Below, piece after piece: positions 344 to 56,991 of a stretch of 64,000 nucleotides of DNA (the stretch's first letter is position 1; each line of letters starts with the position of its first letter). Both the position numbers and the translations under genes were made by a program. This stretch comes from Haloarcula sp. CBA1129 (lineage in GTDB: Archaea > Halobacteriota > Halobacteria > Halobacteriales > Haloarculaceae): assembly GCF_008729015.1 (NCBI RefSeq), contig NZ_RKSM01000001.1, positions 806,001-870,000 of the forward strand, in the 5' to 3' direction. Under the pieces are notes generated by a model, which worked only from the letters and a program-made list of their open reading frames with translations, had not been told where the DNA came from and did no database searches.

Positions 344-435
344 GTTAGATGTATTCTCAGACCAATCGATAATAAATCCCCAGTTCGAGTGTTTCGAGTG
401 TTTCTCCTGTTCCAATGCATGGTTGCCTATTGACT

Positions 436-452
436 CCCCCTGTTTCGAGTGT
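436..452 (-). repeat. Origin recognition box (variant)
   Basis: CCCCCTGTTTCGAGTGT; five-C run and one substitution relative to the best copies. Oriented with its G-string toward orc1. Confidence 0.6.
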
Positions 453-525
453 AACCATCATATAGAGAGGCTGTATCGATGATTATGGGCGTTCACCTGT
501 TCGTGGTGAAGCAGTGAATGTTCGT

Positions 526-544
526 CACCCCCCATTTCGAGTGT
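526..544 (-). repeat. Origin recognition box
   Basis: CACCCCCCATTTCGAGTGT, one mismatch from the perfect copies; same orientation as the 436-452 box. Confidence 0.7.
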
Positions 545-755
545 TCTTTTAGTTTTGGACAGCGGGCTGTGCTGGAGAGTTGACAGTGGGACTTCGGATT
601 GTCTCCAAGCAGATGAGTGGGACATGACTGACCGACAGGCTTCCCTCAGCCTCCTACCGGTCATCTGTGAGTGTTCTGTATCGAGGAACCAGACAGAGAG
701 GTAATCTACTAATGCTGTTCAGGACACACAAATAATATGAAAGAACGGTAACGAG

Positions 756-1241
756 GTGACAGACATGTCTGGTGTCGAATCGGTGCTAATCAAGGCGATT
801 TTAAGCAGTGTATCAAGCAAGGGAACCTCTCTATTATTTTCTGAAGCGATAGAACGACTTCAAGAAGAAAAGGATCTATCTGAAGATGAAATTCAATATA
901 TTGATCGGGCAGTCCAAGTTATCATAGACATCGAACTCACATATAAATATAATATTGAAAATAGAGATGATCCTGATGTAGAGACTTTTTTGCAGGATTT
1001 AGATAGTGCGGCGAAGGAGGCTACAGAGCTGGAGGTCATCTCCGAAATGAAAGGGTTCGATCCCAAGAAGGGCGGAAGTAGTGTACTAATAGGAGTTGCG
1101 TCCGGTATGGCCGCAATATCTGACAATTACGCAGGTGTCAGCGACCGAGATGATATCCCTCAGGATACTACCCCGGACGAACTGTACCAAAGCTCTGCAG
1201 CCGCCCGAAATAGTATGCCGATTTTTGCAGATACAGAGTAG
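756..1241 (+). CDS. Hypothetical protein within the origin region
   Basis: 161 residues from the GTG at 756; an ATG at 765 is an alternative start three codons in. Not recognised. The N-terminal part is predicted helical (VLIKAILSSVSSKG then a charged EAIERLQEEKDLSEDE segment). It has no signal peptide or convincing membrane span, and the C-terminus is acidic and likely disordered. Codon use is more AT-rich than neighbouring genes, which hints at recent acquisition. It sits between two groups of origin boxes and is transcribed away from orc1, a position often taken by small origin-linked genes. A replication role is only an inference from position. Confidence 0.6.
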   Translation: MTDMSGVESVLIKAILSSVSSKGTSLLFSEAIERLQEEKDLSEDEIQYIDRAVQVIIDIELTYKYNIENRDDPDVETFLQDLDSAAKEATELEVISEMKGFDPKKGGSSVLIGVASGMAAISDNYAGVSDRDDIPQDTTPDELYQSSAAARNSMPIFADTE

Positions 1242-1398
1242 CCTGTTGTCCTGTGATGTCATCTCCTGCTTTACTGCACCCTGCAGCACTAACTGAGACG
1301 GTAGATTTGCACACTTACTGACCGAGTGATCCAATCATTTTTTCATGAAGCAGTTTTCGTGAGAGAGATTCTGGTGGTGAGATCCTCCGATTCACACA

Positions 1399-1417
1399 CA
1401 CCCCCCGTTTCGAGTGT
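1399..1417 (-). repeat. Origin recognition box (perfect copy)
   Basis: CACCCCCCGTTTCGAGTGT. Opposed to the boxes at 1618-1636 and 1708-1726; the AT-rich tract lies between them. Confidence 0.75.
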
Positions 1418-1617
1418 TCTGCGGGAATCATCTGTTTCCCCAGGAATCACATCTCGAACGGCTTCGATTCCACCGAGAGATGGCTGCTACGGCGAAGATC
1501 AGAGAGTGAGTTTCGGGGGTCCAGTGATCGAGTGGTGTCGCTGTCCTGAATGTTATATATATTCTTTTCTACTAGGTAACGTTAGTAGTAGTAGTAGACG
1601 GCTCACTCCTATGATAA

Positions 1618-1636
1618 ACACTCGAAACGGGGGGTG
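1618..1636 (+). repeat. Origin recognition box (perfect copy)
   Basis: ACACTCGAAACGGGGGGTG, opposed to the 1399-1417 copy. Confidence 0.75.
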
Positions 1637-1707
1637 ATCGGAACTGTCTTTATATACGAATCGGGCGGAACCGCTCTTCCGTCGGAGAGACTGTCGCTCG
1701 GAGCAAA

Positions 1708-1726
1708 ACACTCGAAACGGGGGGTG
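1708..1726 (+). repeat. Origin recognition box (perfect copy)
   Basis: ACACTCGAAACGGGGGGTG, followed by a short GT run; direct repeat of the 1618-1636 box with a 90-bp period. Confidence 0.75.
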
Positions 1727-1748
1727 TGTGTGTGGTCCCCCGTCCGAA

Positions 1749-2114
1749 TCAGGCTGGATCAACTGGCCCCACATATTGGCTCGTGACAGTGTCGCCCTCT
1801 CGCCACTGCAGGTAATAGTAGTCACGTCCGTCGATGGTTTTGGTTGTGAGCGTTCCCTTCGAGGCTGGGATGTCTGCCTTTTCGTGAGCCTCCGCAAGCT
1901 GGTCATCCCACTCATTCTCAGCCCACTCGTCCGGTGTGTCGTGTTCTGCTATGGGTTGGGTGTCGGTCTCGGTTGGCTTCTTGAAACGATCAGAGAGTGT
2001 CTCGAGGGCGGTGATTGCCTGCTCGTGTGTGTCGATTAGGTCCGCTGGAATCTCGTTGGAGTCGATGGCTTCCAGTTCCTCCAGTGCCGCCTCGGCGTGG
2101 GCTCGGTCGCTCAT
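1749..2114 (-). CDS. Small acidic haloarchaeal plasmid protein
   Basis: 121 residues, start ATG at 2112-2114. The N-terminal half is helical and acidic (AEAALEELEAIDSNEIPADLI). The C-terminal 40 residues form a compact beta-rich unit, GTLTTKTIDGRDYYYLQW, ending SQYVGPVDPA. That tail resembles the short YYYLxWREG segment of haloarchaeal DUF6788-type proteins, but the name is not certain. It reads toward the origin boxes; its 5' side faces palindrome A four bases upstream of the start codon, so the palindrome may act as its operator. Function unknown; acidic composition and clean codon use support a real gene. Confidence 0.75.
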   Translation of the reverse strand: MSDRAHAEAALEELEAIDSNEIPADLIDTHEQAITALETLSDRFKKPTETDTQPIAEHDTPDEWAENEWDDQLAEAHEKADIPASKGTLTTKTIDGRDYYYLQWREGDTVTSQYVGPVDPA

Positions 2115-2117
2115 GTA

Positions 2118-2159
2118 CTAACCAACACTCTTGCGGAAGTTATCGGTTGTGTTGGTTAG
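2118..2159. repeat. Dispersed palindrome copy A
   Basis: Perfect 11-bp arms CTAACCAACAC and GTGTTGGTTAG separated by 20 nt. One of five copies (2118, 5115, 13802, 30120, 46769), all between genes. It lies directly upstream of the 1749-2114 gene. Confidence 0.9.
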
Positions 2160-2272
2160 CGATGATGGTTGGTTTGCTATCTCCGTTGTGAGTGTCGAAT
2201 CAGCTACGGCTCTGTTGAGACAGTCAGAAGTGTGAGTTTTCTTAGCCTCAATCGCTCAGTATAAGAGATGCG

Positions 2273-2701
2273 GTGATCAGCAAAATGTACCGGCTATCAG
2301 GACCAGATTTACCGTACAAGATGAAGAGCATGAGTTCAGCACGAGATGGTGAACAATTCCTGGTTAGGAGCGGGATGGATCTGGATGCTGCTGTTGCTGT
2401 GTCAAAGATGGTCTCTATCGCGACGACGACTTTGGGTTCCTGTTTTTGCCATAATTTCCGGTACGGTGGTTCGGAGACGAGTCAGGTCGGAATCTTGTTG
2501 CTGGGATTCATCACGAATACGTTGACGGCGGTGAACCATTCGATTATCTCGGCGTATATGATTCATGGGTCGGGGAACTTGTTTGAGAAGGCGCTTTCGT
2601 CAGGTATCTGGGCGAATGAGGTTTCTACCGCCGTGGCGTTGCTCGTAGCTGTTGCTGCCGGTGTCCTACTCGGATTCATTTTCACCCTGGATAGTCGGTG
2701 A
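2273..2701 (+). CDS. Hypothetical membrane protein
   Basis: 142 residues from GTG 2273; an ATG at 2285 is an alternative start. Not recognised. Two or three hydrophobic stretches are visible: around residues 70-90 (VGILLLGFITNTLTAVNHSI) and a strong C-terminal span (VALLVAVAAGVLLGFIF). It ends 48 bp before the ATG of the membrane-phosphodiesterase gene and points the same way, so the two probably share a transcript with 4131-4586. Base composition is typical of an acquired region. Function unknown; its fixed place beside a membrane phosphodiesterase suggests a membrane partner. Confidence 0.55.
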   Translation: MISKMYRLSGPDLPYKMKSMSSARDGEQFLVRSGMDLDAAVAVSKMVSIATTTLGSCFCHNFRYGGSETSQVGILLLGFITNTLTAVNHSIISAYMIHGSGNLFEKALSSGIWANEVSTAVALLVAVAAGVLLGFIFTLDSR

Positions 2702-2749
2702 AATATTCTGTGGACAACTACTTTGTCCGGTTGCTGTCTCAGGCAGGGT

Positions 2750-4036
2750 ATGTCCAATAGTTCTCGGTCTGACGGCGGGGATCCGTCCAAGGGAGGTGAT
2801 GATCGGGAGGTTCTCTTGTCGATGTATGATCAGCACCGGCAGGAGATCCGGGCTCACGGGAAGCGGAAGAGCCGTCGATATCTGGGTTCGCTTACGGCGC
2901 TTGGTGTCATCGTCGGATATGTCTTCACGACCAACGGTGATGCACGGGTCTTAGTTTTAGTGCCGTATGTGCTCGGGTTTCTCTACTTGTCTCACATTTC
3001 GTCGATGCATTACGTGACTCAGTTGGCTGCGCTTCTGGCCTTGATCGAGGCGAAGCTGGATCATCTTGGTGCAGAGTATGAGCTATTCCACGGCGGGTTC
3101 AGTATCCGTCAGAATCCACGGTTCCAGAATGTTGAAGCTAAGTATCTCAAGGAGTTCAAGCACGCTAAGAAAGATTCGGATCTGCAAGGTCTGCATCGAG
3201 TTATACAGCTTTGTGTTCGTTATTCGATGAGGGGTATTGCTCTTACAGCATATATTGTCCCGATGGCGGCTGGTACGTGGGCTGTCTATCGTGAGGGGGC
3301 ACCAGACGATTGGACTGGTCTCTTGTCGATGTTCCCGGGTCCCTCTTGGATAGGTCCAGATTTGGTAGGTCCAGCTTTGATACTTGGAACACAGATCGTT
3401 CTGCTCGTTGTAATTGGGGCAGCCTGGTTGCAGTATAGAAATCACAAGGACCTACTTAAGTCAGGGGTTCTGGAATCAGTACTGGAGGATGACTTGGAGT
3501 CGAGGATTGGGGAGATAGAGGATTTAGATATGTATTCGGTATGGCTTGTTCCTGACCGCGGCTCGGAGGCGTATCAGCAGTTAGAAGAGACTGTCGAGGA
3601 GTACGCTCAGCTGGACGAGGATGCACCTGAGTTTGAACCGCATATCACCGTAGTAGGCGGGATTCAAGCCAGTGAATCAGTGCTAGAGGAGGGTGTCCAG
3701 AGTCTTGCTGAGGGACAGGGCGTCTTCGATGTCGAGTTTACGCGGGTTCAGTGTTCGACGACGAAGCACCAGTGCGTGTTTTTGCTGGTTGAGCCTACAG
3801 CGGAGGTTCTCTCTTTGCACCAGGAGGCGGTAGAGGTGTTTGATGTGGATGGTGGGATGTATGTCCCGCATCTCAGTCTCATCTACAGCGATATGGATGT
3901 AGAGGAGCGGTTAGATTTGGCCGAGTCAATCGATATGTCGGCCTTTCCGAGTACCGTTCAAGTCGGCGAGCTTGTACTCGTCAAGACGACAGGGCCTGTC
4001 TCTGAGTGGGTGACTGTTGCGAGATATAATCTGTAG
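2750..4036 (+). CDS. Membrane-anchored 2H cyclic phosphodiesterase (CPDase-like)
   Basis: 428 residues from ATG 2750; an upstream TTG at 2723 is less likely. The N-terminal half has four hydrophobic spans, roughly residues 43-61, 67-82, 159-179 and 205-227. From about residue 260 comes a 2H phosphoesterase domain: YSVWLVPDRGSEAY, then FEPHITVVGG (first HxT, H298/T300) and YVPHLSLIYSD (second HxS, H374/S376). The spacing and the FEPHxTVVG signature match the cyclic phosphodiesterase family that opens 1'',2''- or 2',3'-cyclic phosphates. Fusion to a membrane domain is unusual. The catalytic part should face the cytoplasm, but topology is inferred. Substrate unknown: RNA ends or a cyclic nucleotide signal are both possible. 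Confidence 0.8.
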   Translation: MSNSSRSDGGDPSKGGDDREVLLSMYDQHRQEIRAHGKRKSRRYLGSLTALGVIVGYVFTTNGDARVLVLVPYVLGFLYLSHISSMHYVTQLAALLALIEAKLDHLGAEYELFHGGFSIRQNPRFQNVEAKYLKEFKHAKKDSDLQGLHRVIQLCVRYSMRGIALTAYIVPMAAGTWAVYREGAPDDWTGLLSMFPGPSWIGPDLVGPALILGTQIVLLVVIGAAWLQYRNHKDLLKSGVLESVLEDDLESRIGEIEDLDMYSVWLVPDRGSEAYQQLEETVEEYAQLDEDAPEFEPHITVVGGIQASESVLEEGVQSLAEGQGVFDVEFTRVQCSTTKHQCVFLLVEPTAEVLSLHQEAVEVFDVDGGMYVPHLSLIYSDMDVEERLDLAESIDMSAFPSTVQVGELVLVKTTGPVSEWVTVARYNL

Positions 4037-4130
4037 GTTGACCTCAGCTGCGGGCTGGTGCATACAGGAGCCAGGGTGTCAGGCGAATTGCTCAGTTATA
4101 AGCCAGGTGTCTGTTATACTGTCAGAGTAG

Positions 4131-4586
4131 ATGGTACTGTTACGGATGGGACTGGGTCTTCTGGGCTCTATCTCTGGTTTGCTGGCGGTGGTCGCCGGTC
4201 AACGAGTTGAGCCGTTCTACTCATATCTCGCCCGGATCTTTCCGTCTACCCGTAGTTTGTACGCCGCACGGGAAGTGATCTCGGAGCAGGATAGAATCCG
4301 GATCCGGAATGGTTACCAGGATGAGTTGGAGACTGCGCACAGGGTTTTCATCGACGAGTATGATTTCTACGAGCAGTATCAGCCGACGAAACTCCGTTTT
4401 ATGCATAACTCTTTCAAGCTCGAGTACGCGGATAGGCGGACTCAGACAAGGAGGAAGACATCGAGAGAGGATGTCCTCGAATTGTTCGACTCCCGTATCT
4501 CGGAGGCGTTGGGAACGATATCGGCTTACGCTGCTATAGTCTGTGTCCTAGCGTTTGCTGCGTTGATTTTGACCGCTGTCATCTGA
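4131..4586 (+). CDS. Small two-span membrane protein, probable partner of the CPDase
   Basis: 151 residues, ATG at 4131. A hydrophobic N-terminal segment (LLGSISGLLAVVAG) is followed by a charged central helical region with many Tyr and Arg residues and a C-terminal membrane span (AAIVCVLAFAALILTAVI). Family not recognised. It lies 94 bp downstream of the CPDase gene, same strand, and is probably co-transcribed. The two ends in the membrane with a soluble middle suggest a hairpin-shaped protein with a cytoplasmic or external loop of about 100 residues. Confidence 0.6.
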   Translation: MVLLRMGLGLLGSISGLLAVVAGQRVEPFYSYLARIFPSTRSLYAAREVISEQDRIRIRNGYQDELETAHRVFIDEYDFYEQYQPTKLRFMHNSFKLEYADRRTQTRRKTSREDVLELFDSRISEALGTISAYAAIVCVLAFAALILTAVI

Positions 4587-5472
4587 TTTCCTTGTTGTCT
4601 GAGGGCCAATTTCTTGGAGAGGAAGAGGCGGAAGCTGAGTCGGAAAAAGTCGCGGCTTGAAGATGTGAAGGAGAGGGGGATGAGATCTTGGAGGATCTGG
4701 ATGATGCGATTGAGGAGAACCGTGACCGGCTTCGAAGACCTCAGGGATTTGCCGGCGGTGATACTGAGGATCTGGTAGAGTGCCTTGGGTGCGAGGTATT
4801 ATCTACCTTGCGGGTGCGCCTGTGTGAATAGTTTAAGATTTGGTGCCGTAAATCTTAGCAAGCGGATGTGCGTGTTATATTCCGCCTATACTTGGCACAA
4901 AGGGGTAGCCTCGACACTCCCAAGGTCCGTCATTAGATAAAGTGCTGAATATGCGCGTTCCATCTTGCACGGTTCTCTGAAAACATATGAACGTTGTCAG
5001 CACTTTCAGCGATCAGGTTGCAGGCTTCGGCGACAGACTGTTTCGTATGAGAATACATCTGAGGAATAGCATTCCAACAGAACGGCTGAGGATCCTCCGT
5101 TTCCAGTATTTCGCGCTAACCAACAAGCTGAATGAATACCTCTCTGTGTTGGTTAGCAGTAGGAAGTTTACTCCAGCGGTTGATTCAATACATAGAAGAT
5201 ATCGATAGGCTCCAAATCTCCCGCTGGACTGTTCTCGTCCAATGCTGGTAACCGTCTCTGAGGAGCGTCCGTCACACCCGTTGTGAACCAGCGAACTGCT
5301 CTGGTCGCTCCGTTCGTGTTACGACCACTCACTACACTCCTGAAACCAAGGGATCGCTCCCGGTTCCTGTAGCTACCAAACAGTGGCGTCGGCAGCGGCA
5401 GGGCACGTGCCACCGCGTCCGACAGCGTCGATTTAGTGCCGATTCCCGTCTTCGTCGGTGTCCGTCACAGGG
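4587..5472. other. Gene-poor stretch with decayed coding remnants
   Basis: No intact gene is supported. Around 4640-4830 a plus-strand frame reads like part of an acidic coiled protein (EDLDDAIEENRDRL) but has no start codon and is cut by upstream stops, so it looks like a decayed gene. On the minus strand 5168-5413 shows an open frame lacking haloarchaeal acidic bias, possibly a mobile-element remnant. Palindrome B lies in the middle. Confidence 0.5.
5115..5157. repeat. Dispersed palindrome copy B
   Basis: Perfect 11-bp arms GCTAACCAACA and TGTTGGTTAGC separated by 21 nt. Confidence 0.9.
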
Positions 5473-6354
5473 TCAGGCCGAGGACTCCACCACAACGGGT
5501 GTGACGCCACCCGTCGCGGCTTTGTGGTCGCTGTTCTCTAACAGATCGAGGCCGATGTAGCGTTTTTCGAGCAGTCCTTCAGCGACCTTCATATCCATCG
5601 CGAGGATTTCCGTTTTCGTCTGGTCTCGTCCGACCTGCCGGGTTTTCTCGACGATATCATCGCCGCCCAATTCGACGAGTGTCTCCCAGACCCGCTTGAT
5701 CGTCTGGCGATGGGGCTCTTTCCCGAGTTCGGCAGTCAAAGCCGTTTGCAGATCGGCTTTCGTCATGAAGACGCCGCTGCCGTCGGTACGCTTAGTGGCA
5801 AACTCCGGCCAGCGTTTGGCGACGGCAATCGCCCGATAGGTGTTCTGTCGGTTCGAACGCTCGACGAACATCGTCTTGACTTTTGACTGGCGGCAGTTCG
5901 CGAAGAAATCCAGTGGCGAACTGCTGGGTTCGATGCCCTCGGGCAGCTGCTCGGCGTCCTCTTGCTGGTCGGTGTCGGCTTCGAGTTGCTGGGCCTTGGC
6001 GATGGCACTCTTGGCGATATCGTGGGTGGTCTCCTGCTGGGTTTCGACGTCGTTGAGGCGGCTCTCGTTTTCGGCGGCGTCACCGACGGCTGTCGTCGCA
6101 ACCTCGTGGGTCTGTTCGAGGTCGGCCTCGAGGTCGTCGACGCGGGCTTGGAGGTCGTCGATGGTCGTGACCAGCGTCTCAAGAACACTCGAAACGGGGG
6201 GTGAGACCTCGTCGTCGAGCTCGCTGACAAGTGACTGGAGGTCGTCGGTATCAGTGCCATCCTGTTCGATGTCCATGTCAAGGTGGTCGGCGAGGGCTTT
6301 GTCGGTGGCTGTGTCGTCGGTGCCGTCGTTGTTGGGGTTTGTTTGTCGTGGCAT
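5473..6354 (-). CDS. Coiled-coil plasmid protein with C-terminal winged helix
   Basis: 293 residues from ATG 6352-6354; longer readings begin before a hairpin and are disfavoured. The order is an acidic disordered start, a long coiled coil (about residues 55-135, heptads such as LQARVDDLEADLEQ), then a globular C-terminal region with a helix-turn-helix look (KADLQTALTAELGKEPHRQTIKRV). Coiled coil plus DNA-binding domain is common in haloarchaeal plasmid maintenance proteins, but the family was not identified. A perfect origin box lies inside the coding sequence at 6185-6203 and is read as the peptide SPPVSSVLE. With no ParA in the window, this is a fair candidate for a maintenance or replication accessory protein. 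Confidence 0.75.
   Translation of the reverse strand: MPRQTNPNNDGTDDTATDKALADHLDMDIEQDGTDTDDLQSLVSELDDEVSPPVSSVLETLVTTIDDLQARVDDLEADLEQTHEVATTAVGDAAENESRLNDVETQQETTHDIAKSAIAKAQQLEADTDQQEDAEQLPEGIEPSSSPLDFFANCRQSKVKTMFVERSNRQNTYRAIAVAKRWPEFATKRTDGSGVFMTKADLQTALTAELGKEPHRQTIKRVWETLVELGGDDIVEKTRQVGRDQTKTEILAMDMKVAEGLLEKRYIGLDLLENSDHKAATGGVTPVVVESSA
6185..6203 (+). repeat. Perfect origin box inside a coding sequence
   Basis: ACACTCGAAACGGGGGGTG identical to the origin copies, 4.5 kb away from them and inside the 5473-6354 gene. Confidence 0.85.
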
Positions 6355-9520: not shown

Positions 9521-10120
9521 TCAAAATATGGTGTTGCTGAGAACAGAATCCAGCTCCCCGCACTGTGCATACTCTCTAATTATGCTAAATTTTTGTTCCT
9601 TGGTATCATGAATTCCCTTATCTATTCCCGCGGCCTCTTCCATCTTGTCTCTGAATGCTGATATTATAACTTCACCCCGTTTTCTCCCGCCCACTTCTAT
9701 ACGGCAGCGATATCCCACCATTTCTGTAGTCGCCACCAGTTCACATTCGGTTAGAGTGTTAGTTTCATTAGTGAAATTGGTCTTTTTATTTACTTCATCA
9801 AGCCACTCATCAATAGTGCAGTGATCCAAATCAATAAGTAAATTTATACTAAAACTTTTCTCAAGAAACCCATGTATCTCGTTGCTGTATACATCTTTGA
9901 GTATTTCTCTTCCGTTTTCAGACTTAATGAGTATCTCACAGGGATAGTATGAATTCCCAAACGATTGAATCATATCTGATTCTTTTCCCCTCTTGTCCTG
10001 ACCTTCAATATCTTCAACCGAAAATGTCTCCAATTCAAAATCTAAGTTTCTGTGTTTTATATACTCATTCAGAAGTCGCAAATCCCACTTTCCTTCGCAG
10101 AGGATTAACTTCTTGCTCAT
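9521..10120 (-). CDS. Stand-alone TOPRIM-like nuclease subunit
   Basis: 199 residues, start ATG 10118-10120, overlapping the ATPase gene by four bases. The N-terminus KKLILCEGKWDLRLLNEYI fits the first TOPRIM motif (Glu in CEGK followed by Asp), and LLIDLDHC about 95 residues on fits the DxD motif. TOPRIM partners of this kind (DUF3226/DUF4435 type) act with ABC ATPases in OLD- and PARIS-like defence. It is shorter than typical AriB. The gene is AT-rich with Lys-rich codon use unlike its neighbours, suggesting recent transfer. Nuclease activity is inferred. Confidence 0.65.
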   Translation of the reverse strand: MSKKLILCEGKWDLRLLNEYIKHRNLDFELETFSVEDIEGQDKRGKESDMIQSFGNSYYPCEILIKSENGREILKDVYSNEIHGFLEKSFSINLLIDLDHCTIDEWLDEVNKKTNFTNETNTLTECELVATTEMVGYRCRIEVGGRKRGEVIISAFRDKMEEAAGIDKGIHDTKEQKFSIIREYAQCGELDSVLSNTIF

Positions 10121-11406
10121 TCTCCTCTTAAGTCAAGATGCAGTTCATTAAGATGTTTCCTCGCCTCTGCAAAATCTAGATGCTGCGCAGCATACTTTTG
10201 AATTTTCAATATGCCGAGATTCTCTTCTAGATATGATTCGGTTTCATCTAAGGTTGGATTCAAAAATGCGTTAATCAAATCTACATCATGTGTAGTTATT
10301 ATCATTTGGACACCTTCGTCTCGACTTACAGATACAAAGAAATGGACTAGTTTCTTTATATACCCAGGATGCATACTGTTTTCCGGTTCTTCAAGAAGCA
10401 AAACATACTCTTCCATTTCTGATACGTGAAGTTCCCACAGAAGCCCAGTAATCGCACGGAACCCATCTCCCATAAATTTGTGCGGAATCTGATGACGTTG
10501 GTTGTCCTGATTAAATACTACATCTTCGCTATTGAACGACTTTATTTCCGGTAGAAGGTTATATTTCCGAATAGAGTCTTCGACTCTTGAGAGGACTATG
10601 GAACTCTCCTCATGGCCCTCTATATCTTTCTCAGCAATATCGAGCTCACTTACCATTTTAACGGCAGCATTGCTTTCTAAAGTGCCTACAAAGTTTCCTG
10701 ATCCGTATCGACCTACGACCAGTCCTCTGAACAGGCTTTCCACAGCCCATTGAACTTCGTGTTCATCCACGGTAATAGAAGCGCTCGATTCAGAAATTGA
10801 ACTAGAAAACGTGTCTGCAATATCACCGATAAGATCTGAGAAGGTATCAGAAAAGTACAAAAATGGAACTTGATTTCCTGACTGTTCAACCAATATCCCG
10901 CCACTCACATATTCATCAACCTCCTCATCAGAGCGCATCTCGTCAAACACAATCTCTACTGCCCTACGTAGCAGCGATTTTAGCTCAGAACGTATATTTT
11001 GGTCCCCCTCTTCATCAACTAATCTACGCACAACTCCCCTATTCGAATTAATCTGTCTGAGGAAGAGTTGGCGAGCAACTGAGTGCTTTTGATTGTTGCT
11101 CAGTCTTTTCAGGATTAGTTCCTGCGTTGCTCCTTCGTCGATAAATTCGGTCAGTTTAGCCTGTCCAGTTGCGCCGGAATATTCGCAGCGGACAGTTGAT
11201 TCGTTGCTTCCAGACCGTATTAGATTTTCAACTAGTCCCTCATAACGCCGGACATTGTCTGGAGAAAAGCACAATTCGATGGCTTCAAGAAGCGAAGTTT
11301 TTCCTGAATTATTTTTACCCGTGACGATTGTTATATTATTTGGCTCAAAGATTAGGTTCTCGTGGGTTTTGAAATTTTGAAGATTAACCTTGCTGATTTG
11401 TACCAT
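10117..11406 (-). CDS. RecF/OLD-like ABC ATPase, partner of the TOPRIM protein
   Basis: 429 residues, start ATG 11404-11406. Motifs in order: ISKVNLQNFKTHENL (RecF-type N-terminus), Walker A GKNNSGKTS at residues 30-38, a long middle region, LLLEEPENSMHPGY (Walker B with the D-loop region), and IITTHDVDLI (H-loop). It belongs to the AAA15/AAA21 OLD-like ATPases. It is first in a two-gene unit with the TOPRIM gene, the same order as ariA-ariB of PARIS, which senses phage proteins and kills the cell. AT-rich like its partner. A split OLD or PARIS-like defence module is the best reading. Confidence 0.75.
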   Translation of the reverse strand: MVQISKVNLQNFKTHENLIFEPNNITIVTGKNNSGKTSLLEAIELCFSPDNVRRYEGLVENLIRSGSNESTVRCEYSGATGQAKLTEFIDEGATQELILKRLSNNQKHSVARQLFLRQINSNRGVVRRLVDEEGDQNIRSELKSLLRRAVEIVFDEMRSDEEVDEYVSGGILVEQSGNQVPFLYFSDTFSDLIGDIADTFSSSISESSASITVDEHEVQWAVESLFRGLVVGRYGSGNFVGTLESNAAVKMVSELDIAEKDIEGHEESSIVLSRVEDSIRKYNLLPEIKSFNSEDVVFNQDNQRHQIPHKFMGDGFRAITGLLWELHVSEMEEYVLLLEEPENSMHPGYIKKLVHFFVSVSRDEGVQMIITTHDVDLINAFLNPTLDETESYLEENLGILKIQKYAAQHLDFAEARKHLNELHLDLRGE

Positions 11407-11554
11407 GTAAATGACTTCTCCAGGCCCAATTGTCTATATTAACACGTCAATCTGATTTATTACCTTCGTTGTATTGGCTATCGGAACAGTATGTGAGAGT
11501 TGATAAAGAACGGAGGTACAAGATCATGACATATTGGAAGTCTTTTATAAATCC

Positions 11555-12487
11555 CTACTTGTTCTCGAAGTTATCCGTCAACGACATCTGCTCGGTCCCA
11601 TGCAGATAGTCTTCTACTGGCTCTGAGAGTACCTGTGGCTCCACGTCAAGCACTGCATCAAACCGATCCCGAGTGAATCGGTAGGTGTGATTCTCAACTT
11701 GCTCGCAGGCACCGATTTCGACGAGAAAATCAAACACCAAATCGAGATCTGTGAGCCTCACATTATGCTGTGGGGAAAAGTAATCCCGCACCTCAGTCCG
11801 ACTCACTTCAAGTCCGTCAGCATAATCTAGTGCTTTCTCACCCCACACGTCGGCAATGGCAATCGCGAGGATTTCGTGTTCCATACCCTCAGTGAGCATA
11901 ATCTGATCTGGCGGGTTCTGTGGCAGTTGAATCCCTCGCCGAAGTAATGACTGCAGATTCCCTGACTCGTTGAACTCTCCCCTCAGCGGCCGGAGCTGGT
12001 CACCGTAGTCCTGTGTCATCAACACGGCATAGTTCGTCAGCTCTTCAAGCCTGTCTTGGAACTGTGTCGATTCCTCGGCGGCTTCTTCGATATACGCGGC
12101 GTCCAGATCCTGATAGACGATGACCGGCTCAACGGCTGTGACCGTCCCAGTGTAGCCCATGCGATCCTGTACTTGTGCGTCTTTCAGTGCTGACTCGGCA
12201 GTCTCGATATCGACATCAGCACACTCTCGCATCTGCTTGATATCTCGCCCTTCGATGTTGTGTCCGCTCTTGATTTCTGCGAGTACACACGTCTCACCAT
12301 CGTAGAGTACGAAGTCTGGTTCAGCTGTTACATCCGCAGTCCGGTCTTCGATTTTCGGGAACAGCATCGGAATCCGGACCCCATGATTGGCGAGCGACGG
12401 TGTGGATCGGGCAGTGACAGCGGAGTAAAACAGGTTGTATGCGTTCACTTCCCGCCGTTGCCGAATACCTTCCGTCACCTCGTCCAT
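11555..12487 (-). CDS. PD-(D/E)XK-type nuclease with C-terminal winged helix
   Basis: 310 residues, start ATG 12485-12487. The segment TAEPDFVLYDGETCVLAEIKSGHN carries the restriction-like core: D in PDFVL, then ExK in AEIK. C-terminal residues from about 215 look like a winged helix (VSRTEVRDYFSPQHNVRLTDLDLVFDFLVEIG). The gene follows 12490-13647 after two bases and is clearly co-transcribed with it. No known defence family was recognised. DNA cleavage is inferred from the motif; the target could be phage or plasmid DNA. Confidence 0.65.
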   Translation of the reverse strand: MDEVTEGIRQRREVNAYNLFYSAVTARSTPSLANHGVRIPMLFPKIEDRTADVTAEPDFVLYDGETCVLAEIKSGHNIEGRDIKQMRECADVDIETAESALKDAQVQDRMGYTGTVTAVEPVIVYQDLDAAYIEEAAEESTQFQDRLEELTNYAVLMTQDYGDQLRPLRGEFNESGNLQSLLRRGIQLPQNPPDQIMLTEGMEHEILAIAIADVWGEKALDYADGLEVSRTEVRDYFSPQHNVRLTDLDLVFDFLVEIGACEQVENHTYRFTRDRFDAVLDVEPQVLSEPVEDYLHGTEQMSLTDNFENK

Positions 12488-12489
12488 GT

Positions 12490-13647
12490 CTATTGTACTG
12501 CCACCGGGTTGTCCGACTTGCTCAGTGAATAAGTCGAGTCCAAATCGTCGTAGACATCGCGAACGAAGCTCCGTAGCGAAAGCGCTGTCGTCGTTTCACG
12601 CGCGTAGAGAATCAGGTTTGGCGGCTCCAGCGCCACATCAAACGTCTCCTGATGTTCAGTGTCGTAGACCCGGATCTTGCGGCCACTGTCGCGAATTCCA
12701 TACCGATACTGGTTGCCGTTGAGCACGTTCTCTTCAAGATCAGCGATGAGCTCTTTATTGGTCGCCGACGACCGGTCTGGATCAGTCAACTCCACCGCAG
12801 TGAACCCCTCAACGGTGAATCCACTCTCAAGATCACGGCGCTGTGGCGAGTGCTCGACCTCGAAGCTCTGACGGTCAAGCTCCTGATATCCCTTGGTGAG
12901 CCCGAGAAGTGTCTCGACAGCCTTCCCCTCGGAGCCCCGCCGGACAGACCGCATCGTCAACCGGCCTTCGTTCGTGTTCGAGCCTTGGATAGCTGTCGTT
13001 GGCGAGTTTGTCTGATCGAACTCGATGCGCGTTGGTTTCGCGTCGAAGGCATCTTCGGCTTTCTGGAGGTCATCTTCCTCTGCCCCGGAGAACATGAGTG
13101 TCGCATCTCGCTCCCGATTTGGGGCGTGATACTTGGCGGTGAACCCAGAGACACGTGAATCTTGGATACGCTCGGTTAGTGCCTCTAAATTCTCGGCCGA
13201 GAGGTAGAGCCGTTCGACGCATGGCAGATACCTCAGTAGGTTTTCAATCGTCTTTGTCCGCCAATCGCTATGTACCGTGGTTAGAACCCACAGGTATCTA
13301 TCGTTCGTGACGAAAACGAACTCATCGGTACGATTCTTGGCTGGTGTTTTGATGGTAACCAGCGATACGTCGTCGTCAGCAACTTCTTCAGAGAAGGTGT
13401 GCTCCGCGACGTAGTTCTCAGCATGGCTGGTGACACTATCGCTCTCGGCGAGCCCAGTAATCCACGTATCCAGGTCACCAATTTCGTACCCCTGATTATC
13501 ACACAGATAGATATTCAGGTCGGTTTGGCCCCCGCTCCGGGTTGTCTTCTCCTGCATCTCCTCATCCGTCGTGATGACGTACTGAATGAGTTCATGAAGG
13601 ACTTCTCGCGTGGTTTTGTCCTCGACATCGGATGGGGAGATATCCAT
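12490..13647 (-). CDS. Unknown partner of the PD-(D/E)XK protein
   Basis: 385 residues, start ATG 13645-13647. Acidic soluble protein with no motif that I recognise. The N-terminal helical region (DKTTREVLHELIQYVITTDEEMQ) is followed by mixed alpha/beta regions and a C-terminal stretch DVALEPPNLILYAR. Being first in a two-gene unit, two bases from a nuclease-like gene, suggests it senses or recruits for the nuclease. The intergenic side carries palindrome C about 155 bp upstream. Confidence 0.6.
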   Translation of the reverse strand: MDISPSDVEDKTTREVLHELIQYVITTDEEMQEKTTRSGGQTDLNIYLCDNQGYEIGDLDTWITGLAESDSVTSHAENYVAEHTFSEEVADDDVSLVTIKTPAKNRTDEFVFVTNDRYLWVLTTVHSDWRTKTIENLLRYLPCVERLYLSAENLEALTERIQDSRVSGFTAKYHAPNRERDATLMFSGAEEDDLQKAEDAFDAKPTRIEFDQTNSPTTAIQGSNTNEGRLTMRSVRRGSEGKAVETLLGLTKGYQELDRQSFEVEHSPQRRDLESGFTVEGFTAVELTDPDRSSATNKELIADLEENVLNGNQYRYGIRDSGRKIRVYDTEHQETFDVALEPPNLILYARETTTALSLRSFVRDVYDDLDSTYSLSKSDNPVAVQ

Positions 13648-13801
13648 GTTCGAAAGTACTCTGTGGTCACCGATTTTTATTCGGGCGGATTCTATCCTGC
13701 GATTCTACCTCAAACATGGAAGCTAAGTTGACAATAAATTTGTTCACGAATAGTTGATACTTACCAACCACTATGCAACAAAAATCCGTCCCCCAGCCGT
13801 C

Positions 13802-13845
13802 GCTAACCAACAAGTTACGCTGAATTACACTCTGTGTTGGTTAGC
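13802..13845. repeat. Dispersed palindrome copy C
   Basis: Perfect 11-bp arms GCTAACCAACA and TGTTGGTTAGC separated by 22 nt. It lies between the divergent 12490-13647 and 14265-17087 genes. Confidence 0.9.
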
Positions 13846-13863
13846 CACGACCCACCGAACCAC

Positions 13864-13935
13864 TCACTCCCCAACAGCCCCTTCCACGATCTCGATCCCC
13901 TCGTCGGTCAACCCATACAGCTTATCGACGATCTG
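13864..13935 (-). pseudogene. 3' remnant of a winged-helix gene
   Basis: A short minus-strand frame ends LYGLTDEGIEIVEGAVGE before a stop at 13864-13866. LTDEGxEIV is the usual wing end of small haloarchaeal winged-helix proteins, but the 5' part is missing. Probably a fragment left by a rearrangement. Confidence 0.4.
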
Positions 13936-13956
13936 GTCTGGGCAGTGGAAGCATGA

Positions 13957-14136
13957 GGAAGGTGTCGGTTGCCGACGCGAAGGGGCCTCGTCTACGAGCC
14001 CGTCCGTGGCCCCAAGCGAAAGATCGAGTTTGAACCACGGAGTGATGGTGGGTTTGAGCGTGTGGAAGCTGTCTGGAACGGCTGTCAGTGGCGGGTGACC
14101 GGTCGGGAGGTCGTGACGACGATGCGGCGGACTTGA
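13957..14136 (+). pseudogene. 5'-truncated remnant of a small haloarchaeal gene
   Basis: A frame without a good start reads GLVYEPVRGPKRKIEFEPR and then VEAVWNGCQWRVTGREVV before TGA at 14134. The composition is clearly coding, but an upstream in-frame stop removes the beginning. It abuts the other remnant, marking an old recombination joint. Confidence 0.4.
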
Positions 14137-14264
14137 ACGGCGGGGAAACGGCTAATTGTCCTTCGAATAGTTCAATAGCACTTTCGCCCAGAACGGTTGT
14201 TCCTTGGCTTGGTCGATTATATTTATTGAAAAATACTATTTATCCATGGCTGTACAGGATTCTC

Positions 14265-17087
14265 ATGAGTCTCAATCGAGGGTCTGAGTGGAGCCAATGG
14301 GATTTACACGTCCATACGCCGCTTTCTTTTGAATCCGACTTCAGAATGGGCGCTGAAGAACGTGAGCAGTATGCTGCACTAGATACGTTGAATGGAGTCA
14401 GCAAGCCGCAGCGTCATAACGAAAAGATATGGGCAAAGTACGTTGATGAGCTGGAGTCCATCAGTCACATTGATTGCCTAGGTATCACCGACTACTTTTC
14501 GCTTGAGGGCTATGAGCTCATTAAGAAACTCCGGTCTGCTGGTCGACTCGACAACTTTGATGTAGTCCTTCCCAATATCGAATTTCGACTCGATACTATC
14601 ACTGCCGATGGAGAGCGAATCAATCTTCATGTTATTTTTTCAGATGAACTTTCGGTGAGCGACATCCGGAAAGAGTTCTTGCGCAACCTCAAGGTAACTA
14701 TAAATCACGGTGATGAACGCACCCTTCGCCCCGAGTCGTTGCGAGAACTCGGGGCTCAAGCCAAAGAATATCATAATGACACCTGTTCTGACTATGTTGC
14801 AGGGTGTAAATACGCACGTGTCAAATTCGATGATATAATCGATGAATTGGAGTCAACGAACCTTTTTTCAGGAAAATATCTTATCGTAATGTCTGGCGCA
14901 GAGTGGAGCGACATTAATTGGAAAGGTCAAGACGCAGAGAAGAGACGCCATCTGCTCGCTAAAAGCCATGCCCTGTTCTCTAACAGCCCGTCTGACCTTC
15001 GGTGGGCAACTGGTAAAGGGGATCTATCGCCTGAAGAGTTTAGAGACGAATTCGAATCGCTGAAGCCAGTCTTTTCATCATCAGACAGTCATGATTTCGA
15101 ATCGCTCTGTGTGCCTAATAAGGACCGCTATTGTTGGATAAAAGCCAATCATACCTTTGACGGTCTGAAGCAGGTTGTCTACGAGCCCCAAGACCGGCTC
15201 GACATCTCTGACTCATCACCAAAATCGTTCACACAAATCCAAACCATCCGCTCATTTTCAATAGACGATGGATATGTCAACCAAAATCTTACTATCGGCG
15301 ATACAGAAATCCCGTTCAACTCGAATCTAATCACGCTTATCGGGAGCCAGGGGACGGGCAAGACTGCGCTCTTAGATCTAATCGCGAACTGTTTCCAAGA
15401 CCGACGCAATACCGCTGTCAGTGGTGGAAACTCATTTATTGCGAGAATTGAAGATTCGAATACTCGACTTCAGACTGGGATTGATTTTGAAGACTTGGAC
15501 CCATTCACGAAGACTGCGTTGGGTGAACCGGCTGAGTTCGTAGATGGGGCCGATATATCGTATATCCCACAGGGAAAGATAGTTGAATACTGTGAGCAGG
15601 GGAACCGACTTCACAACCAAATAAATGATTTAGTGACGGGATCTGCCACCAAGGAGTCTTCTGACACGGTAGATGAGTTCAAATCAGAAGGGAACCGAAT
15701 CAGCGAACTTGGCGACAAACTCCGTCGGTTGAATGCCGAACTTCACGACATCAATCCTGCAAGCGTACGTGAGGAACTGCAAAAAGAACTGAAGCAGCTA
15801 AAAGAAGCCCAGACAAGTCTCGATAACAAAAAGTCAGAAATCGAGGATTTCAAGCAAAATCACGAGGCTGAGTTGGAGGAAACAGAAACTGAAAGTCTCC
15901 AAGACGAGTTGGACTCCCTTCGTGAAAAGAACGAGAGGGTAGATGAATTAGAGGCATTAGTAGACTCTGCGAGAGAGGACCTTTCTTCTGTTAACTCGTT
16001 CAATAATAAAGTCAGAAGAATAGACAACCAATTCGGTGACCTAGATATTGACTCAGATATTCCGGAGATTGAATTCAATGGGCACCGTAATGCCATTGAC
16101 TCCTTGGCGGACGACATCTCCGGACTTCGTGATGAGATATCAAACTCTCGGAATAAAATTGAAGACAAGTTGGATGACTCAACAGATGCTGAAGAACAAC
16201 TTGCAGATCTTCGAGAAGAACAGCGGCAAATTCAAGATGTGATTGATAATCTTGAGGGTGCTGTCAAAGATTCAGAGAAGGAGCTAGAGCGGGTCACAGA
16301 ATTACGTAATGAACGTACAGAGGTGTTCGCAGAATATGTTTCTGCATACCTCCGTCGGCGCACGTTGTACAGGGATATCATAGCCCAGTTTACGGGTGAC
16401 GACGGCGGCATCCTTGGGGATGTGGAGTTTGAGCCGAAAATTGAAATCGCCGATGATCTGGTTGATGATTTCTCTGATCTTATAGATATGCGCTCAAATA
16501 ATAGTGAGGATATAAAATCTGAGGTCCGGAAATTACGTGCTATTATTCAGGGTAACCAACCAGACAACCTCCAATCTGCAGTTAGCGAATATCTCGAAGC
16601 AATGGAGGCATTCCGTCAACACACCCTTTCTGACATCGAACCTATCAAATTCGATGGGACACTATATGACACTTATTTGTCTCTATCGGAAGAGGTTTTC
16701 TACCAAGGTACGCCCATGGGCCAACTGTCCAGAGGGCAGAAAGGAACAGTATTGCTTAAAATATATTTGGCTGAGGGTGATAATCCGCTCATTATCGATA
16801 CACCTGAAGACAATCTTGACAATCGTTTCGTCTACGAAGAACTCATTGATGCTATTCGGAAAGCGAAGTTGAATCGGCAGATATTCATTGCCACTCACGA
16901 CGCAAATTTGGTCGTCAACACGGACTCTGAGCAGGTTATTATTTCATCGTTCGATGAGGGAACAATAGAGTATGAAGCTGGATCTCTCGAAGATCCCGAT
17001 ATCCGGTCTGAAGCTAAGGACATTCTTGAAGGAGGAGACGAAGCGTTCCGTCGCCGAGAAGAGAAATACGAACTTCGGCCGAATTAG
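14265..17087 (+). CDS. TrlF-like PHP-domain ATPase
   Basis: 940 residues from ATG 14265; upstream codons in this frame read through decayed sequence. The N-terminal PHP phosphoesterase has WDLHVHTPLS (HxH), LGITDYFS and FSSSDSHDF as metal ligands. Walker A GSQGTGKT lies near residue 360. A long acidic coiled coil (about 450-680) follows, then the ABC signature LSRGQKG near 821, Walker B PLIIDTPEDNLDN near 841 and H-loop ATHDANLV. PHP plus SMC-like ATPase is the TrlF family plan. Family members often occur in defence islands; nuclease or phosphatase action on nucleic acid is inferred. Codon use is more AT-rich than the plasmid average. Confidence 0.82.
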   Translation: MSLNRGSEWSQWDLHVHTPLSFESDFRMGAEEREQYAALDTLNGVSKPQRHNEKIWAKYVDELESISHIDCLGITDYFSLEGYELIKKLRSAGRLDNFDVVLPNIEFRLDTITADGERINLHVIFSDELSVSDIRKEFLRNLKVTINHGDERTLRPESLRELGAQAKEYHNDTCSDYVAGCKYARVKFDDIIDELESTNLFSGKYLIVMSGAEWSDINWKGQDAEKRRHLLAKSHALFSNSPSDLRWATGKGDLSPEEFRDEFESLKPVFSSSDSHDFESLCVPNKDRYCWIKANHTFDGLKQVVYEPQDRLDISDSSPKSFTQIQTIRSFSIDDGYVNQNLTIGDTEIPFNSNLITLIGSQGTGKTALLDLIANCFQDRRNTAVSGGNSFIARIEDSNTRLQTGIDFEDLDPFTKTALGEPAEFVDGADISYIPQGKIVEYCEQGNRLHNQINDLVTGSATKESSDTVDEFKSEGNRISELGDKLRRLNAELHDINPASVREELQKELKQLKEAQTSLDNKKSEIEDFKQNHEAELEETETESLQDELDSLREKNERVDELEALVDSAREDLSSVNSFNNKVRRIDNQFGDLDIDSDIPEIEFNGHRNAIDSLADDISGLRDEISNSRNKIEDKLDDSTDAEEQLADLREEQRQIQDVIDNLEGAVKDSEKELERVTELRNERTEVFAEYVSAYLRRRTLYRDIIAQFTGDDGGILGDVEFEPKIEIADDLVDDFSDLIDMRSNNSEDIKSEVRKLRAIIQGNQPDNLQSAVSEYLEAMEAFRQHTLSDIEPIKFDGTLYDTYLSLSEEVFYQGTPMGQLSRGQKGTVLLKIYLAEGDNPLIIDTPEDNLDNRFVYEELIDAIRKAKLNRQIFIATHDANLVVNTDSEQVIISSFDEGTIEYEAGSLEDPDIRSEAKDILEGGDEAFRRREEKYELRPN

Positions 17088-17289
17088 AGAAATTCGACTA
17101 CAGGTAATATGAGGTGTTTTTCCTATATTCTGAGTGAAAATAAGGGAATGATCTTATAAATCAAATAAGAGAGGTCATTTGCAGAAAAATCCGGGTAGAC
17201 CAGTGAAAACTTATTTGAATGTAAGGCTATCTTCGATTTGATAGCGGTCTCAGCTACCGGGTAATCAAACGAAATCGTTTACCAGCCGA

Positions 17290-18474
17290 CTATGTGAAAT
17301 TCGACAGCGACATATTGACAAACTTGAGAATGTCGTCACGCCCATATCCACGTGATTTGTTACCGTTTGGTTTGTGGGGTCTATGTTCAACCTCTAACTT
17401 ACCTTCTGCTTCTAAGATTTGGAATGCGGACCGGTAGTGCATTAATTTGAATACGTTTTGATCCAGCGTCTCCTCCAGAAGATCCTGAAACACAATCTCA
17501 TCTCCTTTGTATGTTGAATAGAGGCTTCGAGCGAAGGCCTCGACGCGCTCCTCAAAATCGTTGGTTTCGCCGAATTCCGCGAATGACAGCTGATCGTCCT
17601 CGTAACCGGTATGGTCCGGTCCTAAATACGCGAACTCATCGTCTGCTCCAGCATTGAACATTGTTTCCTTCATCACTTTCAGCCCCTGCCAGTGGTTCGT
17701 CACATGAATAAGATAGTAGCAGGTCTGTCGTTTTGACTCCTCCACCATTTCAAACGGCATCGTGAACTTTGCATCAGCTTTGTCTTTGAGTTGTTCTTGA
17801 TAGATGGATGAAAATCGCTCGGCCCGTTCGTCTTTGCCGAGATCGGGTGGAACGCGCTGTTGCCATTCCGTAGAGCCCAGTGCCTCAGAGATCGCTTTCT
17901 GGTGGCCTGAATCTTCCATCCACTGTGCCATCTTTCCAGCCATAAATGTGATCAACAGCTCTAAACTCTGATCTCGAAGCTGGAAGAGTTCAGTAATTAA
18001 ACTAAATGGGATATTGCCATATCCGAAAGGGTCTATGAACACTAAGGATGGTGGTGGTACTCCATACTCATACTGCTCAGTGAAATCTACCGCCCAGTCT
18101 TCGAACTTTCCGGGTCGACAGATGGGATCAATACGGTCATCTACAACTTGTTCTTTCTCTTGGACAGACTGTTTCAACTTCTCAAAGTTCTCAGGGTCTT
18201 TCTCAATAAAAATACACTTAAATGAATCAAGCCGTTCATCAATTCCGTTAGCGGTAGAGAGCATTTTATCAGCCATATCCATCGCAATAAGCGGTGACCC
18301 TTGCGACCCGTCAGGATATCGTCCAGGACCAGCAAACCCATCGACAAAAAGCAAATTAGAGTCAACCATGCTGATTTTCTTAATCCATGGGTTAAGATAG
18401 AGACTGAGAATACTATGCTTCATTTCTGTCTGCCCTTTTTTTCTCAGCTTCCGTTCGTCGCTGTCTTCGTACAT
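17290..18474 (-). CDS. tcmP: Three-Cys-motif partner protein TcmP
   Basis: 394 residues, start ATG 18472-18474. The N-terminal region KGQTEMKHSILSLYLNPW then FVDGFAGPGRYPDGSQGSP and FIEKDPENFEKLK is the TcmP signature, followed by VFIDPFGYGNIPF, which resembles a methyltransferase-like core. TcmP proteins are named for constant linkage to three-Cys-motif (Gp37/Gp68, DUF5131) radical-SAM-like proteins, and here one lies directly downstream on the same strand. The pair's reaction is unknown. Convergent with TrlF across a 200-bp gap with no other gene. Confidence 0.85.
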   Translation of the reverse strand: MYEDSDERKLRKKGQTEMKHSILSLYLNPWIKKISMVDSNLLFVDGFAGPGRYPDGSQGSPLIAMDMADKMLSTANGIDERLDSFKCIFIEKDPENFEKLKQSVQEKEQVVDDRIDPICRPGKFEDWAVDFTEQYEYGVPPPSLVFIDPFGYGNIPFSLITELFQLRDQSLELLITFMAGKMAQWMEDSGHQKAISEALGSTEWQQRVPPDLGKDERAERFSSIYQEQLKDKADAKFTMPFEMVEESKRQTCYYLIHVTNHWQGLKVMKETMFNAGADDEFAYLGPDHTGYEDDQLSFAEFGETNDFEERVEAFARSLYSTYKGDEIVFQDLLEETLDQNVFKLMHYRSAFQILEAEGKLEVEHRPHKPNGNKSRGYGRDDILKFVNMSLSNFT

Positions 18475-48965: not shown

Positions 48966-49781
48966 GTGCGTGTAATGGCCCATTTGTCGGCACGTGCGGA
49001 TGCGGCTTATCAGAATGATTACCACCATAAGCTCCGTGGTCGGCTCTGGGACGCACTTGAGGGGACTAAGTACGACCAACGCCATGACGATGGCGAGCCG
49101 CCAGGATTTGTTTACTCGAATCCATTTCCACCCCACGATATGCAGGAGGGTGATGATCGTAAACTTCTGGTTGCCTCACCCGATGAAGGATTACTGGCCA
49201 ACGTCGCCGCCGACTTACTTGACCAACCGGAACTGAACATCGGCGAAATGCCGTTCCACGTTGACGACGTTACGTCGCTATCGCCCGACGTCGGTGAACC
49301 GGGCACGCGCGGGACGATTGAAACCGGGACCGGCCTATTGGTTCGGATTCCACCGTGGCGATGCGAGGAGTATGGAATCGATCATCCCGGTGGCGACACC
49401 GCCGTCTTCTGGCGTCCGGAGCATTCGATGGAACCACTCCGTACGCAGTTGGAAGCAAACCTCGATCAGAAACACAACCGATTCGCCCACGATCACCTGC
49501 CGGGACCGAGCGACGTCGACGGCGACCTGTTCGACGGCTACGAACTCATCAAGACGTTCGCGGTCCCGGTGACCGTCACTGAAGGCCAAGAGATGACCTA
49601 CGTCCTAAGCAAGTGGGAGTTCTCGTATATGGTTCGGGACGACCACCACCGCCGCCATCTCAACCTTGCATTGGATTGCGGACTCGGCGAGCGGAACTCG
49701 CTAGGGCTTGGGTTCGTGAATATCACAGAAAAAACGCGACCAGGTGAGAGCGAACTGGAGGGAAGCGATGCTTTCGCCTGA
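48966..49781 (+). CDS. cas6: Cas6 crRNA-processing endoribonuclease
   Basis: 271 residues from GTG 48966; this start is chosen because the product then opens RVMAHLSARADAAYQNDYHHKLRGRLWDAL, as known haloarchaeal Cas6 proteins do. The candidate catalytic histidine region is YHHKLRG near residue 20. The Gly-rich C-terminal loop GLGERNSLGLGFVN is the RNA-binding signature. Cas6 cuts the repeat transcript eight bases before the repeat end. First gene of the cas operon; it overlaps cas8b by 14 bp. Confidence 0.93.
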   Translation: MRVMAHLSARADAAYQNDYHHKLRGRLWDALEGTKYDQRHDDGEPPGFVYSNPFPPHDMQEGDDRKLLVASPDEGLLANVAADLLDQPELNIGEMPFHVDDVTSLSPDVGEPGTRGTIETGTGLLVRIPPWRCEEYGIDHPGGDTAVFWRPEHSMEPLRTQLEANLDQKHNRFAHDHLPGPSDVDGDLFDGYELIKTFAVPVTVTEGQEMTYVLSKWEFSYMVRDDHHRRHLNLALDCGLGERNSLGLGFVNITEKTRPGESELEGSDAFA

Positions 49782-51927: not shown

Positions 51928-51928
51928 C

Positions 51929-53011: not shown

Positions 53012-53013
53012 CG

Positions 53014-53811
53014 ATGTCCCAACAATCGCTGGACGGATGGACGGCTGACGAGGGCAGTGACCAGCCTGACCACTGTCTCTCGTTTACCGTTCGTGGCCCG
53101 TGGGGACACTTCCGACGGATCGAGGGCAATATCGTCAAACAGACCTATCGAATTATCCCCCGAACGACCGTTGCTGGGCTCCTCGCAGCCGTTCTTGGAA
53201 TCGAACGCGATGGCTATTACGACCTGTTCGCACCCGATACCTCGGCAGTCGCCATTGAGCCTGTTCGTAAGATTCGAACGGTCAACATGCCGATGAATAC
53301 ACTCTCGACTGCTGCTGGAAACTTACAGTCACTCAATGGTCGCGGGAAAATCAGTGTAAAATTACCTGATCCGACGACCCTCCGACAGCAGCACAACTAC
53401 GAGGTACTGGTCAACCCGGCCTACCGTATCGATGTCGCACTTGCGGACGATCAGTGGTATACCGAATTGCGTGAAACGCTGTCCGCAGGAGAATCCCACT
53501 ACGTGCCAAGTCTCGGTCTCTCAGAGTACCTCGCGGATATCGAGTATCACGGAGAGTTCGATATTGAGGATGGCCCTCGGAACGATACTATCGAGGTCGA
53601 TTCAGCCGTACCAAATGCGGTCGACGATATCGTTCTTGATCCAGGAACACGCTGCCAGATCGAAGAATCTCCGGCATTTATGCAAGCTGATTCGGGTGGT
53701 CGGACGACCACGGGCTTTACGAACTACGCCTACAGCCCGGACGCCGAGTCTCTTGAAGTTTCAAACGCGTCAGCTGCCAGTGTCGACGGTCGAACCGTGG
53801 TGTTCGTCTGA
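53014..53811 (+). CDS. cas5: Cas5 subunit of Cascade
   Basis: 265 residues from ATG 53014, two bases after cas7. LSFTVRGPWGHFRRIEGNIVKQTYRIIPRTTVAGLLAAVLG is the Cas5 start, with the RAMP fold holding the crRNA 5' handle. Its stop shares a base with the cas3 start (TGATG), so translation is coupled. Confidence 0.94.
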   Translation: MSQQSLDGWTADEGSDQPDHCLSFTVRGPWGHFRRIEGNIVKQTYRIIPRTTVAGLLAAVLGIERDGYYDLFAPDTSAVAIEPVRKIRTVNMPMNTLSTAAGNLQSLNGRGKISVKLPDPTTLRQQHNYEVLVNPAYRIDVALADDQWYTELRETLSAGESHYVPSLGLSEYLADIEYHGEFDIEDGPRNDTIEVDSAVPNAVDDIVLDPGTRCQIEESPAFMQADSGGRTTTGFTNYAYSPDAESLEVSNASAASVDGRTVVFV

Positions 53812-56989: not shown

Positions 56990-56991
56990 CA

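Follow-up and report, generated by a model that had tools for sequence, protein, structure and literature searches.

The gene at 2750-4036 of the DNA analyzed here encodes a protein in which a predicted four-span membrane module is fused to a C-terminal 2H domain of the cyclic phosphodiesterase (CPDase) type. We lean toward reading this protein as a membrane-tethered 2',3'-cyclic phosphodiesterase that faces the cytosol and serves as an accessory, patchily distributed enzyme, often carried on variable or mobile DNA. The window, by which we mean the whole 64-kb stretch that was analyzed, belongs to the main contig of a haloarchaeal genome that is nearly complete (4.05 Mb). Enzymes of this kind are known; what is new is the joining to a four-span module, which occurs both by gene fusion and by operon. 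Within an open-licence library, literature searches on archaeal CPDase and on fusions of 2H phosphoesterases to transmembrane helices gave no title or abstract that described this joining. The features of the locus are as follows.

2750..4036, plus strand: fusion gene, four-span membrane module plus CPDase-type 2H phosphoesterase (from the ORF, Pfam and the start Met of relatives)
2750..3520, plus strand: membrane module (N-mod), four predicted helices, both termini predicted cytosolic (from the haloarchaeal family, model and charges)
3524..4033, plus strand: CPDase-type 2H phosphoesterase domain (PF07823, 8.2e-20; 1fsi, 4e-21; model pLDDT 93, TM 0.87)
3641..3649, plus strand: catalytic motif 1, H-I-T (H and T invariant; aligned to H42/T44 of 1fsi)
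3869..3877, plus strand: catalytic motif 2, H-L-S (invariant; aligned to H119/S121 of 1fsi)
2357..2701, plus strand: gene 1, 3' end left over from a seven-span membrane protein of ~290 aa (ORF 2273-2701 starts in unrelated sequence)
4131..4586, plus strand: gene 3, 151-aa orphan ORF whose two ends each carry a hydrophobic segment (from the ORF list and searches for relatives)

The reading frame of the fusion gene spans 2723-4036 on the plus strand and would give 437 aa from a TTG codon at 2723 or 428 aa from an ATG at 2750. The separate module genes of relatives begin with a Met that aligned with the ATG at 2750, and we therefore consider this ATG the likelier start. The C-terminal domain is almost certainly a 2H domain of the CPDase type. 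In Pfam it gave a nearly full-length match to PF07823 (CPDase) with 71.8 bits against a cut-off of 21 (E = 8.2e-20), and it also matched PF13563 (2_5_RNA_ligase2) with 54.9 bits against a cut-off of 27 (1.4e-14). The profile search against 2H and CPDase families, which the sequence-only reading had proposed as a check on itself, was thus positive for two families above their curated cut-offs. A profile of seven haloarchaeal 2H relatives matched the Arabidopsis cyclic phosphodiesterase (1fsi) at an E-value of 4e-21, and matched B. subtilis YjcG far more weakly (5e-4). In the profile alignment both motifs fell exactly on H42-x-T44 and H119-x-S121 of 1fsi, and DVYS-x-W, QCVFLL and Y-x-PHLSL-x-Y were also kept between the two proteins. 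Nine 2H proteins shared 34 invariant columns that included all four catalytic residues, and the His/Thr pairs, whose loss in homologues the same reading had named as evidence against itself, were invariant among the relatives.

The AlphaFold2 model of the 2H domain had a pLDDT of 93. Its best five PDB matches were all chains of Arabidopsis CPDase, with a top TM of 0.87/0.82, and the next matches were a Pyrococcus 2H protein, YjcG, Usb1 and LigT at TM values of 0.55-0.77. Profile score, motif register and fold all place the domain with the CPDases (PF07823; PDB 1fsi, 1jh6, 1jh7), its fold being nearer to CPDase than to other 2H proteins. The domain shares the 2H fold with LigT/ThpR and YjcG and passes the cut-off of PF13563, but it falls far below the equivalog cut-off of TIGR02258 for LigT/ThpR (15.9 bits versus 65.7) and below that of NF010223 for YjcG (30.4 versus 129), and its structural similarity to both is lower. 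Relative to the CPDases of Arabidopsis and yeast, the haloarchaeal domain is distinguished by its fusion to a four-span module and by being archaeal, accessory and patchy, with the partner pathway of KptA mostly absent. We consider it very likely that the domain is an active enzyme.

The module comprises residues 1-257 of the fusion protein and belongs to a family of haloarchaeal proteins of ~200-260 aa. Of 293 genomes from the order, 15 (about 5%) had members of this family, and most of these genes were free-standing, with neighborhoods that differed. The free-standing four-span module genes at loci L029-L038 belong to no named family. No Pfam family covered the module, and only stray single-member matches were obtained among 12 members. 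The model of the module, built on 12 sequences, had a pLDDT of 77.6 and showed four long helices extending beyond the membrane; a Foldseek search of PDB and BFVD with this model, whose quality is moderate, returned nothing below an E-value of 0.16. When Lys and Arg residues were counted, there were 10 in the N-terminus, 1, 11 and 0 in the three loops in order, and 4 in the linker. The concentration of these residues in the N-terminus and the middle loop, with hardly any in the outer loops, suggests that both ends of the module and the 2H domain lie in the cytosol. It is therefore highly probable, as predicted from the sequence, that the fusion protein is held in the membrane and faces the cytosol, and four membrane helices are supported by the model and the charge pattern. 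Pfam, model and charges thus agreed with the earlier description of four membrane spans followed by a C-terminal domain with both HxT/S motifs.

CPDase-type 2H enzymes are normally soluble, and a membrane-joined member is indeed unusual, as had been suggested from the sequence. Membrane attachment of a 2H enzyme is nevertheless not unprecedented, since vertebrate CNPase, which opens 2',3'-cyclic phosphates to 2'-phosphates, is anchored via C-terminal isoprenylation (PMC3290555). The two proteins are alike in being membrane-attached 2H enzymes, but the haloarchaeal protein would be held by membrane helices rather than by a C-terminal lipid. CNPase also represents another 2H branch and was absent among the best structural matches listed.

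We found the module and the 2H domain encoded side by side in other genomes. In G033, a module gene (L026, 9140-9865) is followed by a 2H gene (9898-10413) after a gap of 32 bases, and in G231 (L024) the two genes are adjacent with a gap of 13 to 40 bases, depending on the start chosen. The two genes lie on one strand in both of these Halorubrum-type genomes and form one frame in the host. In G261 a module without its front half precedes the 2H gene and lies beside what appeared, on reading by eye, to be the end of a transposase. Identity to the host module was 46-50% for the 2H-linked modules of G231 and G033 and 17-28% for free-standing modules. By a rough estimate, the chance of a module gene and a 2H gene lying next to each other is about 1e-5 per locus. 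Because G033 and G231 belong to one genus, the linkage evidence was counted as about three lineages, and even so the adjacency is far beyond chance. The fusion in the host and the adjacent separate genes elsewhere support each other, and the module and the 2H domain probably work together. Comparison of G033 with G231 (NG86) gave dN/dS values of about 0.16 (module) and 0.18 (2H gene), indicating that both genes of the operon are under purifying selection. We infer that the operon form came earlier than the fusion; in a tree of ten 2H domains, most deep forks were without resolution.

Other genes were noted around these pairs. A 332-aa protein is encoded in G231 (L024, 8162-9160) on the same strand, about 42 bases after the pair; by eye it is possibly PD-(D/E)xK-nuclease-like, and it had no Pfam or PHROG match. 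The gene directly upstream of the pair in G033 encodes a regulator that matches a viral PHROG (E = 9.5e-172), with an integrase-like gene about 3 kb farther upstream. The neighboring genes in G033 gave no match in a tblastn search against phage records, though one of them matches a viral PHROG.

The CPDase-type 2H gene was found in 7 of 392 genomes of the order and in 3 of 345 genomes of the phylum, all three of them haloarchaeal. Six of the ten genomes that carry the gene had no module nearby (G282, G337 and L053, plus G060, L051 and L052, the last three being Haloquadratum or close relatives whose neighboring genes are shared), so the enzyme in general does not depend on attachment to the membrane. 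The 2H gene of L053 (Halorubrum laminariae) is broken by an internal stop, and a search of 170 Halorubrum-family genomes added only one more, a broken second copy in G715 of the Haloquadratum group. Other PF13563 proteins numbered two or more in all 21 genomes examined. Since two core PF13563 proteins occur in each of the genomes examined, the CPDase-type 2H protein appears to be an extra, accessory enzyme. A profile scan of genome contigs found no loci for the whole fusion protein and six for the 2H alignment, and a plasmid search gave a single match, in Paracoccus, with 30% identity over 27% of the query. Relatives of the fusion protein were not found in phage records, nor were relatives of the 2H domain found in viral contigs. 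We read the unit of module and 2H domain as accessory, being rare and patchy, carried in variable or mobile DNA, and outside core tRNA splicing.

We propose that the four-helix module would hold a plant/yeast-type CPDase on the cytosolic face of the membrane, where the two His-x-Thr/Ser pairs would open a terminal five-membered cyclic phosphate and leave a 2'-phosphate. The most likely substrate would be the 2',3'-cyclic phosphate of RNA ends or nucleotides. Module and enzyme would act as a pair, whether fused, as here, or encoded by the two genes of one operon, as in some other genomes. Opening of a cyclic phosphate is the chemistry expected from the family, and by the same analogy the chance that a 2',3'-cyclic phosphate is the main substrate seems about even. 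Haloarchaeal tRNA halves are joined by RtcB, which takes cyclic-phosphate ends directly, and the need for a separate opening step is therefore not obvious. Of the two roles proposed from the sequence, RNA end processing at the membrane and removal of alarm signals, neither found specific support, but chemistry on RNA ends or 2',3'-cyclic phosphates is the better supported choice. A role in conflicts of mobile elements or viruses with the cell is plausible only from the context. What stands out is that a plant/yeast-type CPDase is tied here to a module matching no library family. If the protein is active, membrane-bound 2H enzymes would extend beyond vertebrate CNPase to organisms mostly without KptA, raising the question of which cyclic phosphate is removed and for what reason this happens at the membrane. 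Together, the fused and the two-gene versions make a small, ready test system.

The enzyme could instead act on Appr>p, the ADP-ribose cyclic phosphate that is made by KptA (PMC9503650), although we consider this unlikely. Its nearest solved relative is the Arabidopsis Appr>p phosphodiesterase, and KptA (PF01885) is present in the host genome. However, searches of the six other genomes with a CPDase gene gave no KptA, and a further six genomes from the host genus had KptA while their PF13563 proteins were the two core ones only. A KptA partnership as a general rule was rejected because KptA was missing from 6 of the 7 2H-bearing genomes tested, and this absence makes 2',3'-cyclic phosphates a better guess than Appr>p.

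Rather improbable, too, is a counter-signal or defence enzyme in which a cyclic nucleotide alarm would be broken down or sensed by the 2H domain, with the module as effector or anchor. Such a role would fit the patchy distribution, the variable DNA with candidate defence genes 6-14 kb away, and the position of the G033 pair beside a viral-PHROG regulator and near an integrase-like gene. It also has a parallel in Acb1, a phage anti-CBASS nuclease with a 2H fold and an HxT/HxT tetrad that erases cyclic nucleotide signals (PMC9117128). The haloarchaeal domain shares the 2H fold with Acb1, but its TM is 0.87/0.82 to CPDase and 0.47/0.56 to Acb1 (Foldseek E = 3.6e-3), and it is membrane-joined and not phage-borne, with the searches of phage records and viral contigs described above negative. 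An Acb1-like enzyme was ruled out by this fold and distribution. PADLOC gave no match up to an E-value of 1 for any of genes 1-3, and no recognized cyclase was present among the predicted neighboring genes. The SMODS cyclase (PF18144) was absent from the host, G231, G261 and G337; among six relatives, it was above cut-off in G033 and G282 and weak in G060. A CBASS partnership was rejected since the host has no SMODS cyclase. Removal of antiviral alarm signals, which had been offered as a second role on the basis of the sequence, is thus possible but unsupported.

A further proposal, which we regard as improbable, is an undescribed membrane effector whose 2H pocket would read and erase a nucleotide signal while the module would act on the membrane, in conflicts among mobile elements, viruses and haloarchaea. 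Very improbable is a degenerate or idle gene with no present function in a decaying island, since the decayed gene 1, the broken 2H copies in L053 and G715 (second copy) and the G261 module without its front half would be in line with decay, but the host frame runs unbroken through 428 codons and retains every catalytic position, and the G033 and G231 copies are under purifying selection.

The gene for the proposed membrane-tethered cyclic phosphodiesterase lies in variable DNA, and nothing adjacent to it names its job. A complete Orc1/Cdc6 frame on the minus strand extends across the left edge of the window, from -916 to about 457. The G-rich repeat AACACTCGAAACGGGGGGT occurs in six copies on both strands, at 435, 527, 1400, 1617, 1707 and 6184, where none would be expected by chance, and this repeat cluster adjoins the Orc1/Cdc6 gene. 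Haloarchaeal orc/cdc6-associated origins with G-string ORB elements have been described (PMC3528665), and the Orc1/Cdc6 gene with the repeat at 435-6202 is probably an orc/cdc6-linked replication origin of this type. Candidate defence genes are located at 10117-18474 and comprise an AAA ATPase like AriA/OLD/PDC-M38A, a large ATPase like Ppl, and a PDC-M30A-matching protein with a GMT-like winged helix. Farther along the window are a conjugation coupling protein of the TrwB/TraG type (32841-35063) and a CRISPR-Cas set with Cas7, Cas3, Cas1 and Cas_TM1802 (49744-57987).

The fusion gene and its two neighbors on the same strand had been taken together as a three-gene membrane system. This grouping was not sustained, and a three-gene operon was ruled out, because gene 1 is a remnant and gene 3 an orphan; the conserved partnership is that of the module with the 2H domain. 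Gene 3 was not found beside any of the relatives, and searches of plasmids, viral contigs and 293 genomes from the order gave it no convincing relative of its own. A weak match of gene 3 inside a 1218-aa methylase-like frame was taken as chance. Gene 1 (2357-2698) aligned with 79% identity to the 114 residues 176-289 of a seven-span protein from another haloarchaeon, G007, that is 290 aa long. The first 175 residues of this parent protein were found neither in the window nor in the 10 kb on its left side, and gene 1 is therefore a decayed 3' remnant, left by another element. A similarly short copy of gene 1 was present in G292. At L046, L047 and L048 the seven-span parent protein (290-325 aa) is encoded inside a conserved gene set, together with proteins of 409, 346 and 809 aa that had no Pfam or PHROG matches where scanned. 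This gene set is perhaps an undescribed element.
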